A stretch of 14,908 bases of DNA, taken from NCBI GenBank assembly GCA_027490415.1, contig JAIXYD010000086.1, forward strand, positions 1-14,908. The letters are read 5' to 3'. Below the pieces are notes generated by a model that saw nothing but the letters and a program-made list of their open reading frames with translations, did no database searches and was not told where the DNA came from. A program made the translations under genes and the position numbers. Below are positions 5,459-11,364 of the stretch, piece after piece; position 1 is the stretch's first letter, and each line of letters begins with the position of its first letter. The DNA comes from Streptomycetaceae bacterium. Lineage in GTDB: Bacteria; Actinomycetota; Actinomycetes; Nanopelagicales; Nanopelagicaceae.

Positions 5459-6211
5459 TTACTGATTTGAAGCGCGATTTTCACGAAGTCGCGTGACAGC
5501 TTCTTCTGCTAACTGCTGATCAAAGATTTCATCTCTCGATGGCGCGGCTGCAGCTAGAGCTTCGCGCTCAAGACGCTCTTGCTCTTCGCTCCACTTGCCT
5601 GGCTCAGTTAAATCAATAACTCGGCGAGAAGGAACAGCTTTAGCTGCAGTCACATATGTAGGAACAGGAACGCTCTGTGGATCCCATTCGCTTGCTGCCT
5701 TCTGACTTCCCTTAGGCAAAATAGTCACGCCAGAAATCTCACGCTCTGACAGCGGAATCCAATGTTCTGTTGTTGTCTTTGGTGAGACAACGTCGACAAG
5801 ATTTGTTGGAGAGATGCCCGCATTTGTGCGATGTAGCTCGTCACGACGGCGCTTAGCAATTTTCTCCGCGTTAGTTTCATGTCGCACATGTGCAAGATAG
5901 AAAATGAATCCTGCGACCGGTAACAAGATGAGTGTGTAAGTAACTGTTTGCATAACTGCACCTACCAATGTCAATACAAATGATGTGAGAATGAGAGAGA
6001 AGAAAAGTCTTCTTCGAGTTAGCTTAAGTTGATGTGCCCGTAATCGATCAACTTCAGAAAGCGGACTTGCACTTCCTGATACGACTTCGAGTGCGCTGCG
6101 ATAACGCTGAGCGCTCTTTCCGGTGAATTCATTTCTACTGTGTATCCATCGTGGCAGAAAATAGGCAACCCACATGCCAATAATTGCCAGGTAGATGATT
6201 CCAGAAGCCAT
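5459..6211 (-). CDS. glpR: Divisome membrane protein SepX/GlpR
   Basis: This small membrane protein has a first transmembrane helix at residues 3-19 ending in the FLPRW motif. A cytoplasmic linker follows (20-66), then a helical hairpin (about 69-89 and 91-108), then a basic KIAKRRR stretch and a long soluble tail. The tail contains WDPQSVPVPTYVTA (176-189) and DLTEPGKW (200-207), which I recognise as the conserved tail block of actinobacterial SepX/GlpR. It ends in a charged, probably helical segment (208-247). Known homologues are membrane partners of the gephyrin-like protein Glp in corynebacteria and a division protein in Streptomyces. Its gene lies in the cluster that encodes Glp. A 66-base gap after rimJ, holding a palindrome, suggests it may also have its own promoter. 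Confidence 0.85.
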   Translation of the reverse strand: MASGIIYLAIIGMWVAYFLPRWIHSRNEFTGKSAQRYRSALEVVSGSASPLSEVDRLRAHQLKLTRRRLFFSLILTSFVLTLVGAVMQTVTYTLILLPVAGFIFYLAHVRHETNAEKIAKRRRDELHRTNAGISPTNLVDVVSPKTTTEHWIPLSEREISGVTILPKGSQKAASEWDPQSVPVPTYVTAAKAVPSRRVIDLTEPGKWSEEQERLEREALAAAAPSRDEIFDQQLAEEAVTRLRENRASNQ

Positions 6212-6220
6212 GATGATCCA

Positions 6221-6239
6221 AGATTAAGGGGTCACCCCT
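6221..6239 (-). promoter_or_regulatory. Operator-like palindrome abutting a putative glpR -10 element
   Basis: Bases 6227-6239 form an odd-length inverted repeat: six-base arms AGGGGT and ACCCCT around a single central base. Directly next to it on the minus strand, 6221-6226 reads TAATCT, a -10-like hexamer 9 bases before the glpR ATG. A palindrome in the promoter spacer could be a regulator site. It lacks a T-tract, so it is not a terminator. By chance a few such repeats are expected in a window this long; the position is what makes it notable. Confidence 0.35.
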
Positions 6240-6277
6240 AAACATCTGTGGATTTGCGCCTTACCTCACTGCACTTT

Positions 6278-6877
6278 TTATTCGACTGTTGGGTTCTCTT
6301 TTACATAGCTGACATGGTCTCGCCACTGTCCATCAATGTGTAAATAGCGTGCGCGAGTACCTTCAAAAACATAGCCGGCCTTCTCAGCTACTCTGCATGA
6401 AGGTGCATTTTCGGGGCGAATGTTGATCTCGATTCGATGTAATCCAAGTTGATCGAATCCATAGCGCGTGAGAATTTCTACCGCCCTTGTCGTATAACCG
6501 CGGTTAGCAAATTCTTGATCGATCCAGTACCCAATGTGGCCACCGCGTAGAGCACCGTAAATGACGCCGCCAAGTGTGATCTGTCCAACGAGATTAGGGC
6601 CTTTCCAGATCACAAAAGAGAACGAGCGGCCATGTCTGGCCTCACGATTAAAGGTCGCGACCATAGAAAAAAATGATGGAAGTTGAGGCACCTCAGCGCT
6701 AGGTCCGACCGTCACGGTAGGCAGAGTCGCTTCCCACTGCTGTAACCATTCGCGATTATTTCTGCGCACGCGATTCCACTTCATCCGATCACGCAGGCGA
6801 AGCGGGCGAAGTTCTAGCTCTCCATCGCTAAGGAGAATCGGCCAAGGACGAGAATGAGGTGAACGGTGCAAAGCCAT
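6278..6877 (-). CDS. rimJ: GNAT-family N-acetyltransferase, RimJ-like
   Basis: This 199-aa protein is a Gcn5-related acetyltransferase of the RimJ/RimL type, which acetylates protein N-termini or small amines with acetyl-CoA. The real substrate is unknown. The N-terminal RPLRLRDRMKW (24-34) is the usual family opening. The acetyl-CoA-binding core is GHIGYWIDQEFANRGYTTRAV (about 113-133), followed by GLHRIEINIRPENAPSCRVAEKAGY (145-169), a classic RimJ block. The ATG at 6875-6877 lies 5 bases after the glp stop, so it is almost certainly cotranscribed with glp. The order glp-rimJ-glpR is conserved in actinobacteria including M. tuberculosis (recalled), which suggests but does not prove a link to the division proteins. 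Confidence 0.9.
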   Translation of the reverse strand: MALHRSPHSRPWPILLSDGELELRPLRLRDRMKWNRVRRNNREWLQQWEATLPTVTVGPSAEVPQLPSFFSMVATFNREARHGRSFSFVIWKGPNLVGQITLGGVIYGALRGGHIGYWIDQEFANRGYTTRAVEILTRYGFDQLGLHRIEINIRPENAPSCRVAEKAGYVFEGTRARYLHIDGQWRDHVSYVKENPTVE

Positions 6878-6882
6878 GGCAA

Positions 6883-7809
6883 CTAGATATATCGGCGTTC
6901 GAGAACAACAACGGTGACATCAGCTCCAGATTCAAGTGATGTCACATTCTCAGGGACTGCGATGAAGGCGTTGGCATCAGAGAGCGTGGTCTGCTCATCT
7001 TGGGCTGAAGAGTCGCCTTTACCCAGCGGAACAATCGACTTTCCATCCTCTGACAAAATTCCACGAATATATGAACGTTGTCCATCAGGTGAGGAAATTG
7101 ATTTCTCCAGCTTTGCCTTAACCGCCGGGCGGTGAATGGTCGAAGCTCCGAGCATCGTACGAATCATGGGGCGGACGAAAAGCTCAAATGAAATATAGGC
7201 AGCGATTGGATCGCCCGGCAATGTAACCACAGGGACTTTATCGGGTCCGATCGTTCCGAAATTGTGTCGGCCACTTGATTCAATAGCTAAGTCAATCGTG
7301 GTGATCTCACCAATTCCAGCAAGTGTGCGAGTGATGAGATCAAAGGAGTCATCTTTTCGCTCACCACTGATAATAATTAGATCTGCTCGGACTAGTTGAT
7401 CTTCGATGACATCCTTAAGTTCTTCTTCGTCATCAGGAATTGTGTGAACGCGATATGCAACCGCACCGGTTTCGCGGACAGCAGTTGTGAGTAGCCACGA
7501 ATTAGTTTCGTACTCTTCATCTTCGCCGAGAGTCTGACCGGGCTCAACTAAATCTGGCCCTGCGGAGAGAACAACTACGCGTGGATGCGGACGAGTGGGA
7601 AGATGATCTCGGCCAATAGAGGCAGCCAAGCCAATCTGTGTTGATCGAATGCGACTTCCCTCTTTGAGGACTAAACGCTCACCGGCAAAGACATCTGCCG
7701 CCAATGTTGCACCATGGGCATCGAGAAGTGGCATATCGAATGGTTCAAGTGGGCGGCAAAGTGCCAATAGGGATGAGAGAAACTCATCAACTCTTACATG
7801 CTCTGCCAT
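6883..7809 (-). CDS. glp: Glp, gephyrin/MoeA-like cell-division protein (reduced)
   Basis: This is a homologue of MoeA/gephyrin of the actinobacterial Glp type. In corynebacteria Glp binds the FtsZ C-terminus and the membrane protein GlpR. The 308-aa protein is about 100 residues shorter than a normal MoeA/Glp. Residues 21-41 (LEPFDMPLLDAHGATLAADV) match domain I, then the sequence jumps straight to AGERLVLKEGSRIRSTQIG, which normally follows domain II. The segment carrying the DNSAMDG motif is absent. Domain III is present (RPRVVVLSAG-like, ETNS, IEDQLVRADL), but the SGGVSVGDYD loop has become SGERKDDSFD (148-157). PGNP has become PGDP (198-201). Domain IV follows (221-308). Molybdopterin chemistry therefore seems lost, while the III-IV region linked to partner binding is retained. 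The start is the ATG at 7807-7809. Confidence 0.88.
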   Translation of the reverse strand: MAEHVRVDEFLSSLLALCRPLEPFDMPLLDAHGATLAADVFAGERLVLKEGSRIRSTQIGLAASIGRDHLPTRPHPRVVVLSAGPDLVEPGQTLGEDEEYETNSWLLTTAVRETGAVAYRVHTIPDDEEELKDVIEDQLVRADLIIISGERKDDSFDLITRTLAGIGEITTIDLAIESSGRHNFGTIGPDKVPVVTLPGDPIAAYISFELFVRPMIRTMLGASTIHRPAVKAKLEKSISSPDGQRSYIRGILSEDGKSIVPLGKGDSSAQDEQTTLSDANAFIAVPENVTSLESGADVTVVVLERRYI

Positions 7810-7815
7810 AATCTC

Positions 7816-7821
7816 ACCATA
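7816..7821 (-). promoter_or_regulatory. Putative -10 element for glp
   Basis: On the minus strand these bases read TATGGT, a TAnnnT match 6 bases before the glp ATG, so the transcript could be leaderless. The overlapping GGTGAG could instead act as a ribosome-binding site, so the two readings cannot be separated from sequence alone. The intergenic space to the divergent 5-FCL gene is only 43 bases. Confidence 0.32.
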
Positions 7822-7852
7822 CTTGTTAGAGCTACTGAATACGGGGATTGAC

Positions 7853-8410
7853 GTGATCTTTCATAATGAAAAGTCTGATCTTCGCAAAAGATACCGTCGA
7901 GAACGTAGCGAACATGCAGTCGATACTCCTTATTCATATCTCATCGATTCAAAAGAGATTTCATCAGCACATGTGATCGCTAGTTACATTTCATATGGTG
8001 ACGAACCCAACACCGCAGAACTAAATCAGGCAATTCTTGCCGCTGGAAAAAAGTTATTACTGCCTCGAGTAATCGAAACATCTGGCGAAACAGGAATGGA
8101 ATGGGTTTCGTGGAATGGCGATCAGCAATATCTGAAAGAGCGCGGCCGAATTCTTGAACCCATTGGTCCTGCAGAAATCGACCACAATCAGATCGATGTT
8201 GTCATCGTCCCTGCATTACGAGTGGATGGCCAGGGGTATCGATTAGGACAAGGTGGCGGATTCTATGATCGCGCACTTGCTCACATTACTGCGTGGACTA
8301 TCGCTCTGATCTATCCCGAGGAAATTTCTGGCCAACCTTTGCCGCGTGAAAGCCATGACGTGCCAGTACATGCGTATGCAACGTACGACATGGTTGTTCG
8401 TTTAATTTAA
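7853..8410 (+). CDS. 5-formyltetrahydrofolate cyclo-ligase
   Basis: This enzyme converts 5-formyl-THF to 5,10-methenyl-THF using ATP, returning a folate storage or inhibitory form to one-carbon metabolism. I start at GTG 7853-7855 (185 aa, normal for the family), with GGGG 6 bases upstream as a possible ribosome-binding site. The frame extends upstream to 7649, but only as an antisense run through glp. Motifs include the basic N-terminal LRKRYRRER (10-18), ASYISYGDEPNT (43-54), LLLPRV (68-73), EPIGP (102-106) and the C-terminal signature DVVIVPALRVDGQGYRLGQG followed by GGFYDR (to 140). It is divergent from glp and its TAA overlaps the stop of the dehydrogenase at a shared TTAA. In mycobacteria and streptomycetes galU lies next to this gene (recalled), but not here. 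Confidence 0.93.
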   Translation: MIFHNEKSDLRKRYRRERSEHAVDTPYSYLIDSKEISSAHVIASYISYGDEPNTAELNQAILAAGKKLLLPRVIETSGETGMEWVSWNGDQQYLKERGRILEPIGPAEIDHNQIDVVIVPALRVDGQGYRLGQGGGFYDRALAHITAWTIALIYPEEISGQPLPRESHDVPVHAYATYDMVVRLI

Positions 8411-9549: not shown

Positions 9550-11364
9550 TTACTTCTCTTCCCTCGTGCTCAGTGATCTTAAATATTCGTTGTACTGTGC
9601 AAGTTCATCTGGTTCACCCATTGCAGCCTTGCGTTCTTCATTGCGATCGATGCGCCGTGTCTCTTTTGCATCATCACGCATCCAAAGAATAAAGGTCGCG
9701 ATCAAGGCAAGAATAATTGGAATCTCCCCCATTGCCCAACTGACACTTCCGCCTGCACGCTGGTCATCCAGGATTCCTGAGCCAAGCCAAGGAATGTTCT
9801 GTGAGGAGTAGAAACCTTTATCGATCAAGGTTGTGGTTGCAAGAAGGGAGATCGAGAAGAAGGCGTGAATTGCCATCGCTGCAAAGAGCATGACAATTCG
9901 TACCAAGTGGTGAATGCGGCGTGGGCTTGGATCTACTCCGATGATGATCATAAAAAAGAGGAAGCCAGCCAAAATAAAGTGAACATTCATGAGTAGATGT
10001 CCGGCATGGCTGCTCATGAGGGTTCCGAAAAGATCTGTGAAGTAAAGAACGAAGAGTGATCCATCGAAGAGTGCGAGAGCAACAATTGGATTGGTGAAGA
10101 GAACTCCAATACGAGAATGTAAGAGTGCAACAAGAATTGCTCGTGGGCCACTCTCTGTTGGTGTGCGCCCTTGTGGAAGAGTTCTTAATGCGAGAGTGAC
10201 TGGTGCACCTAATACCAATCCAATAGGAGCAATCATGCCAAGGGTCATATGGGCAATCATGTGATATTCAAATGAATACATTGCATAAACACCTAAGCCG
10301 CCACTTGTTGCAAAATCTATGCCAGCAATACCAAGTGCGAATGCAACGGTGCGACCAACAGGCCAAGCATCGCCGCGCTTTTTAAGAACAACTACACCTT
10401 TGATGTAGAGAGCAACCGCGAGAACAAGCACACCAATAAAGAAGACATCTGGTTCGTATGCCCAAAGAATGCGCGTGAAGGTAGGGGCCGCAGGGATTTC
10501 CGACTCAACAACTCGATCAGGGCTTGCATTTAACGATAACCAAATTCCAATAGCAGTTACCGCCGCCATCAAAGCAACTTCTGCAGTGATTAAACGAGTA
10601 AGGCTGCGCCAATCTATTTTTTCGCGAAGTGACAAGTTTTTGCGATGCAGATAACCCATAAAGAGAAGAACACCCGTCACAATGGTTTTGAGAATAATGA
10701 CGCGTGCATAGGTGGTGTCCCAAGCTTCGCGGAAATTCAAACGAGCCCATGCATTAATTAATCCGCTGAGTACAACCACAATCGCTGCCCACAGAGCCAT
10801 CACGCTAAATCGAGGAAGAGCAATTCTGCGATCCTCGGGTGCCAAAAACATCAGTGCAAAAAGGCCACCTACCCAAAGAGTTAATCCAGCAACGTGAAGC
10901 AGCATTGAACCAATAGCTAGGGCATGGGAACCACCCGATGCGGAGTGACTTTCGAGTGCGGGTGCAGTAATTACCACAAGAGAAATCACAAGAAGAACCA
11001 GAGAGGGAATCACTCGTTTCAACCTAAGAATCAAATATCCAACAACAAAAGCCACAAGAGTTTGAGCTAAGAGATACCGACCGATGGTCACTTGTGAGAC
11101 AAAGGAGCGAATCGTGGTCGTATCTAGCGCATCTGTAAAACCGACACCGAGGATCTCTGCCAAGGTAGCTATAAGAAAGGTGCCAGATGAGAGAAACCAG
11201 ATTAATCCGATGACTGACGCTTTTCTTCTTAAAGCCAAAGAATTTGTCGAAAGAGTACCTTCTGTATTGAGTGTAAGAGTGCTCATCGCGAGTAATAAAC
11301 CTACGAAGGCAAAGCTTGATATAAATGTAAGATATTTTGAGATTGTCAGTACTTCAAAGAACAT
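9550..11364 (-). CDS. CopD-CtaG fusion membrane protein (copper/cytochrome c oxidase assembly)
   Basis: This 604-aa polytopic membrane protein joins two domains. Residues 1-280 resemble CopD, with ESHSASGGSHALAIGSML (138-155) and HVAGLTLWVGGLFALMFL (157-174). Residues about 300-562 are a CtaG (caa3 assembly) domain, with EYHMIAHMTLGMIAPIGLVL (366-385; H368, H372), SHAGHLLMNVHF (H453, H456, H462), RRIHHLV (H485, H486) and DDQRAGGSVSWAMGEIP. About fifteen hydrophobic helices precede a charged cytoplasmic tail (562-604). Such CopD-CtaG fusions occur in actinobacteria, for example mycobacterial Rv0102 as I recall. The likely role is copper delivery for aa3-type oxidase assembly. It starts 2 bases after the copC-like stop and abuts the dehydrogenase start, so the three genes form one operon. 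Confidence 0.9.
   Translation of the reverse strand: MFFEVLTISKYLTFISSFAFVGLLLAMSTLTLNTEGTLSTNSLALRRKASVIGLIWFLSSGTFLIATLAEILGVGFTDALDTTTIRSFVSQVTIGRYLLAQTLVAFVVGYLILRLKRVIPSLVLLVISLVVITAPALESHSASGGSHALAIGSMLLHVAGLTLWVGGLFALMFLAPEDRRIALPRFSVMALWAAIVVVLSGLINAWARLNFREAWDTTYARVIILKTIVTGVLLFMGYLHRKNLSLREKIDWRSLTRLITAEVALMAAVTAIGIWLSLNASPDRVVESEIPAAPTFTRILWAYEPDVFFIGVLVLAVALYIKGVVVLKKRGDAWPVGRTVAFALGIAGIDFATSGGLGVYAMYSFEYHMIAHMTLGMIAPIGLVLGAPVTLALRTLPQGRTPTESGPRAILVALLHSRIGVLFTNPIVALALFDGSLFVLYFTDLFGTLMSSHAGHLLMNVHFILAGFLFFMIIIGVDPSPRRIHHLVRIVMLFAAMAIHAFFSISLLATTTLIDKGFYSSQNIPWLGSGILDDQRAGGSVSWAMGEIPIILALIATFILWMRDDAKETRRIDRNEERKAAMGEPDELAQYNEYLRSLSTREEK

Follow-up and report, generated by a model that had tools for sequence, protein, structure and literature searches.

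The window, a stretch of 14,908 nucleotides taken from a MAG of 1.1 Mb (67.9% complete, 210 contigs), has nearest named records that include Candidatus Planktophila (family Nanopelagicaceae). It carries on the minus strand at 6883..7809 the gene glp, assigned by profile search, alignment and tree to a short form, lacking domain II, of Glp, the gephyrin-like divisome protein, which descends from a molybdenum-cofactor enzyme. The open reading frame encodes 308 amino acids, and its extent and strand are as given in the preliminary description. Directly 3' of glp lies a GNAT acetyltransferase gene (6278..6877, minus strand; RimJ-like, with a match below the cut-off), followed by a gene for a GlpR/SepX-like protein, the presumed Glp receptor (5459..6211, minus strand), named from its position and from a match to the NCBIfam model NF050099 (SepX_GlpR) of 86.4 bits against a cut-off of 150. 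The divergent neighbor is a 5-formyltetrahydrofolate cyclo-ligase gene (7850..8410, plus strand, start approximate). Elsewhere in the window (9550-11364), a 604-amino acid open reading frame with sub-cut-off matches to CopD and to the caa3 oxidase assembly factor CtaG is possibly a CopD-CtaG fusion.

From the N to the C terminus, the short protein is composed of an N-terminal segment of domain III (residues 1-22, 7744..7809), the first half of domain I (residues 23-42, 7684..7743), the second half of domain I (residues 43-73, 7591..7683), domain III with the MoCF_biosynth fold beginning at a hinge Pro-x-Pro-Arg (residues 74-227, 7129..7590) and domain IV (MoeA_C, residues 228-308, 6886..7128), all on the minus strand and all with approximate limits, those of the first three segments being published boundaries mapped by alignment. 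Two further minus-strand features placed by alignment are the former catalytic loop of domain III (residues 148-157, SGERKDDSFD, 7339..7368) and a β-hairpin of domain IV (residues 245-261, 7027..7077), which corresponds to the FtsZ/GlpR-binding hairpin of Corynebacterium glutamicum Glp.

The site of the missing domain II is a junction zone running from D39-V-F-A to G-E44 (7678..7695, minus strand, located by alignment), with the sequence LLDAHGATLAADVFA on its N-terminal and GERLVLKEGSRIRSTQIG on its C-terminal side. Residues 42 and 43 of the window protein face residues 39 and 151 of C. glutamicum Glp, leaving 111 residues (40-150) without a counterpart, which bears out the initial claim that about 100 or more residues including domain II are absent between the flanking blocks. 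In the accessible text of PMC10522489, domain II of the C. glutamicum protein is residues 46-145, nested in domain I; the gap spans it, and thus the inserted domain has been removed and both halves of domain I are joined. Pfam finds MoCF_biosynth and MoeA_C in the 308-amino acid frame, and of MoeA_N only positions 139-160 below the cut-off. Among NCBIfam models that of the divisome protein Glp (NF045515) scores best, matched over profile positions 139-403 with 280.8 bits against a whole-protein cut-off of 475, compared with 507.4 bits for a full-length Glp of the sister genus g28, and the best PDB sequence match is C. glutamicum Glp (8bve), starting at residue 154. Because Glp is described as a four-domain protein in the available parts of PMC10522489 and PMC11733289, and because the 475-bit cut-off is not reached, the window protein is treated here as a Glp variant, not as a regular member.

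The preliminary description also proposed a precise excision between similar points. At the peptide level D[VI] is found at both flanks of domain II in the full-length sisters, separated by 99-104 residues in g28/g30, but DNA identity between the flanks is near random. In the closest sisters 6-8 of 21 bases are identical, against random means of 5.5-5.8, and excision at a direct repeat in the DNA, which was considered as the mechanism, is therefore unsupported. Values of 13/21 in f6 and 12/21 in f22 (as high in 0.006 of random pairs) are only indicative, since in this table of 17 genes f24, f19 and f12 were paired at the wrong left motif, the right motif of f5 was unclear and f2 was skipped. 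The rest of the protein had been called intact; this is true of the reading frame but not of the catalytic loop of domain III, which is altered as well, so that the change extends beyond the junction.

Spread and ancestry of the short form

A Glp match is present in 280 of the 296 genomes of the order. The 16 genomes without one comprise 15 that are less than 90% complete and G287 (95%), and G245 has only a weak match that is probably its MoeA. The short form was read in at least 172 of the 296 genomes, a count that omits partial or broken matches (e.g. G061, G090, G206) and genomes outside the matches listed. Among the 150 matches listed, 148 genomes have one match running from residue 1-6 to residue 305-308. 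In the search that returned the named records, all 80 loci compared, of 155 found, match over residues 1-308. The short form recurs in the clade, which the preliminary description had named as support. In L282 (G090, genus g27), the short Glp has a strongly diverged C-terminal third. G605, considered as a further short Glp with a frame of 274 residues, was rejected because the frame ends at the contig end.

The window alone would leave room for a deletion introduced by assembly or binning of a single MAG, given that it derives from an incomplete genome in 210 contigs. All 17 single-contig genomes examined carry the short Glp, however, as do the named complete chromosomes CP015603, CP015605 and NZ_CP016774, and with closed genomes of this kind an artefact is refuted, its residual probability being negligible. 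Among the forms read, full-length Glp within the order is confined to the sister genera g28 (G092-G094) and g30 (G100), where the Glp match falls into two parts and the reading frames are 404 and 409 amino acids long; G091 (g28) has a partial gene with MoeA_N. A full-length gene in close relatives would have spoken for a defect of this one assembly, and what the relatives have instead, in at least 148 genomes, is a full-coverage match to the short form. Nor was domain II found elsewhere: of the 17 single-contig genomes with a short Glp, 14 lack MoeA and gave no relocated copy in a MoeA_N search, G000 likewise has no MoeA_N, and the remaining three (G014, G015, G190) have a separate MoeA. Alignment, tree and order-wide matches agree on a Glp without domain II whose frame is intact and which is fixed in the clade.

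In a Glp/MoeA tree of 56 rows, from which the domain II columns were left out, the branch separating Glp from MoeA is supported at 100/99. The 27 short rows of family f1 form one clade (100/100) that joins the full-length g28/g30 rows at 97/99, inside Glp. A second short Glp of 307 amino acids without domain II is present in G632 (genus g94, family f39), which by its kinship label is of the same class as the window and of a different order. This gene lies beside galU, GNAT and GlpR genes in the same locus order and groups with the full-length g95 Glp of its own family (99/89). Forcing all 28 short rows into one clade was not rejected with the long outgroup rows included (AU p 0.171); without these nine outgroup rows, in a run made after the first AU result, a single short clade was rejected (p = 0.0054). 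On this phylogenetic evidence domain II was probably lost twice, independently in the window lineage and in g94, the latter being represented by the one genome read (G632). Short Glps are presumably also present in G423, G598 and G644, and the pattern of MoeA_N and moaA there agrees with this: G423 has a Glp match with neither MoeA_N nor moaA, and G598 and G644 have two MoeA_N hits each, of which the one read is a MoeA paralogue and the other lies near moaA. In G632 the MoeA that was read is likewise near moaA.

Active site and molybdenum-cofactor genes

D59, T100 and R137, which we take to be active-site residues of MoeA located on domain II (mutants of all three are among the entries listed in the structure comparison), are absent from all 27 short f1 rows and kept in the g28/g30 rows. 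E188 is changed in 27/27 of the short f1 rows. The domain III loop reads SGGVSxGxYD in full-length Glps, whereas 42 short forms (A1) have the consensus SGExxDxSFD, whose letters are conserved at S 83, G 88, E 80, D 80, S 95 and F 85 percent and 64 percent for the last D, against a protein mean of 69.5 (42 short rows). The short Glp might nevertheless still act as a molybdotransferase, either without domain II or with a domain II supplied by another gene, and the retained MoCF_biosynth fold and the prolines P298 (27/27 short f1 rows) and P301 (24/27) could be taken that way. The loss of D59, T100 and R137 together with the change of E188 makes this very improbable, and 14 of the 17 single-contig short-Glp genomes contain neither MoeA_N nor moaA; outside g28/g30, moreover, 70 of the 75 genomes with moaA have a MoeA_N gene.

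MoeA_N occurs in 80 of the 296 genomes. In g28/g30 it is Glp itself, and outside these genera the 19 loci compared (16 distinct genes) are all nearest MoeA. The presence of moaA follows that of MoeA_N. Across 291 genomes, a set that leaves out the five of g28/g30 and in which related genomes are not independent events, both moaA and MoeA_N are present in 70, MoeA_N alone in five, moaA alone in five and neither in 211. Here moaA was called at E values up to 0.001, with 73 of 80 above the curated cut-off. The five g28/g30 genomes (G091-G094, G100) all have moaA and genes for molybdenum hydroxylases (PF02738), and their single MoeA_N gene is Glp, partial in G091; elsewhere among 30 genomes PF02738 gave a short hit in G294 and none in the other 24. 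Outside the order, G041 (97% complete), G334 (87%) and G527 (75%) likewise combine moaA with one MoeA_N gene that is Glp. In the alignment D59, T100, R137, E188, D228 and D259 are kept in the Glps of g28, g30 and G041, but g28/g30 have another residue at K275, and none of the 17 full-length Glps aligned retains K279. Catalytic activity of the g28, g30 and G041 proteins is plausible from these residues, and the replaced lysines make it plausible at most.

Family f5 shows the converse arrangement. None of its six genomes (60-100% complete) has moaA, and the four Glps read (G040, G326, G343, G386) keep domain II; according to the residue table, T100, R137, D228 and D259 are lost in the G040 protein, and the Glps of G343 and G386 are 98% and that of G326 73% identical to this protein. 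These small genomes (L120, L278, L279, L280) thus combine a full-length Glp with a decayed catalytic motif, an inactivation without domain loss. Since f5 lacks moaA and retains domain II, loss of the cofactor permits the deletion and does not force it. In g94, moaA and MoeA genes persist in three genomes. What the short-Glp lineages have in common is that Glp need not be an enzyme, either because no cofactor genes were found or, mostly, because another MoeA is present. In G432 (f39) there are two Glp-clade genes, L306 (C111) and L305 (C40); the motif-intact one lies near open frames that by eye resemble moaC, moaE and mobA, and the one with a decayed motif lies in a galU-glpR locus.

A neutral account, in which Glp made no use of domain II and the deletion in streamlined genomes carries no functional message, draws on the small genome sizes and on f5, where the motif decayed with domain II in place. 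We consider it unlikely, though deserving of weight, since the six residues from D59 to D259 listed above are kept in g28/g30 and in 11 of the 13 full-length Glps of other families (the full set is not kept in f5, f12 and C. glutamicum, which has Gly/Ala at D228/D259), and since moaC follows glp in g28 and f6.

Gene order and binding surfaces

The locus around glp differs between lineages. The gene order in g28 (L308) is cyclo-ligase (minus strand), galU, full-length glp, moaC, a mog-like MoCF gene, GNAT and glpR, with moaC starting one base past the glp stop (L308 of G094, 5903-8055). In f6 (L310, G041) it is galU, glp, moaC, a mog-like open frame named by eye, GNAT and glpR; Pfam supports moaC and MoCF in L308 and moaC in L310. 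In f5 and f39 (g94, g95), GNAT follows glp and moaC is absent. A galU gene separates the cyclo-ligase gene from glp in g28, g30, f5, f6 and f39, and none is found in the flanks examined of 80 Planktophila loci (L031-L110). In these Planktophila loci GNAT immediately follows glp in 75/80, and in 78/80 a GlpR gene is found no more than 1.5 kb downstream. The locus of the window lineage thus has neither domain II nor moaC nor mog, and by parsimony the ancestor would have had a gene order like that of g28/f6.

Three candidate hinge prolines, Pro20, Pro74 and Pro76, are present in 28/28 short rows. Pro74, found in 0/8 MoeA rows, is the sole one separating Glp from MoeA; Pro20 and Pro76 do not discriminate, being present in some MoeA rows, and in C. 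glutamicum the residue aligned with Pro20 is Ala. The FtsZ tail, examined in 24 rows from 30 FtsZ loci (two of them from outside the order), is of the type DEIDVPDFMK in all 24. In C. glutamicum the FtsZ tail binds the domain IV hairpin, which is remote from the putative Mo site; deletion of the hairpin abolishes binding of both FtsZ and GlpR, as reported in the portions of PMC10522489 available. In the window Glp the hairpin is shorter than that of C. glutamicum and Met361 and Tyr369 are not kept; both residues are also missing from the other non-Corynebacterial full-length Glps aligned, and the published partial alignment, in the accessible part of the same source, covers Corynebacteriales.

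AlphaFold2 monomer models reached a pLDDT of 90.2 for the window Glp and 93.4 for the other short Glp, and both superpose almost fully on proteins of the MoeA fold. For the window protein, 293 of 308 residues superpose on residues 7-409 of E. coli MoeA at 2.1 Å, the fit being better to closed MoeA/Cnx1E (1.9-2.1 Å) than to open C. glutamicum Glp (3.3 Å). The short Glp is accordingly predicted by the models to fold well as a monomer without domain II. The conserved loop and the unkept FtsZ-binding residues could also mean that the short Glp has acquired a new function, for example another ligand or partner bound through SGExxDxSFD, most positions of which exceed the protein mean in conservation, and that FtsZ is no longer served. 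This seems improbable to us, given that GlpR linkage, hinge Pro74 and the FtsZ tail are all retained.

Scaffold, enzyme and known systems

The explanation that best covers these results, to which we assign a probability of about 0.78 as a whole, is that the catalytic module was shed once Glp had been freed from its enzyme role and that the division scaffold was retained. The ancestral locus would have had the g28/f6-like order with a full-length, motif-intact Glp. At this locus the window lineage would then have lost domain II, moaC and mog, and the resulting short frame is maintained throughout the clade. Part of the active-site cleft left with domain II, so the short protein would have no molybdotransferase activity and would serve as a divisome scaffold only, a role suggested by the GlpR linkage, the retained hinge and the conservation of the FtsZ tail. 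What remains, domains I, III and IV, may be a minimal gephyrin-like platform that GlpR tethers to the membrane and that binds the tail of FtsZ. Domain II would be a catalytic module dispensable for division and as such could be lost, probably twice. Counting against this explanation are the retention of domain II in f5, the moaA and MoeA genes of g94, the unkept Met361 and Tyr369, the failure of Pro20 and Pro76 to discriminate Glp, the AU p of 0.171 where two losses are concerned and the closed, MoeA-like model.

A further reading stands at even odds, namely that Glp kept its enzyme activity past its origin and in lineages such as g28/g30 still serves as the sole MoeA, a single protein encoded in a glp-moaC-mog-glpR locus that would insert molybdenum through domain II and organise division through domain IV. 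The short Glps would then be natural separation-of-function forms, domain II being a detachable catalytic module that was shed on two or more occasions at one and the same position. The sister genomes carry genes for the cofactor and for molybdoenzymes, and no MoeA-type gene other than Glp was found in them, so that such moonlighting is directly testable.

No prior account of a Glp without domain II was found in the open-licence PMC literature as far as its text is accessible, and the word Nanopelagic- occurs in neither PMC10522489 nor PMC11733289 in their available parts. A divisome-type Glp lacking the catalytic domain extends throughout most of the acI lineage, and acI is described (PMC5301498) as outnumbering all other bacteria in most freshwater lakes. 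With the catalytic domain absent through most of the lineage, domain II is unneeded for whatever keeps this Glp. The short form bears on how the MoeA/gephyrin family joins enzyme and scaffold, which nature may have separated here, and a Glp of 300 residues offers a more compact target for structural studies of how GlpR and FtsZ are bound.

Compared with C. glutamicum Glp (Cgl0883; PDB codes 8bve and 8bvf; PMC10522489), the window protein shares membership of the Glp clade, Pro74/Pro76, GlpR linkage and domains I, III and IV, and differs in the absence of domain II and in a shorter FtsZ-binding hairpin with changed key residues. Relative to the molybdenum insertases, E. coli MoeA and plant Cnx1E, it lacks domain II with D59, T100 and R137, and E188 and the domain III loop are changed. 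The E-domain of animal gephyrin, in contrast, keeps its catalytic sites according to the available text of PMC11733289, and its GlyR site is placed in domain IV away from the FtsZ site of Glp in that of PMC10522489.
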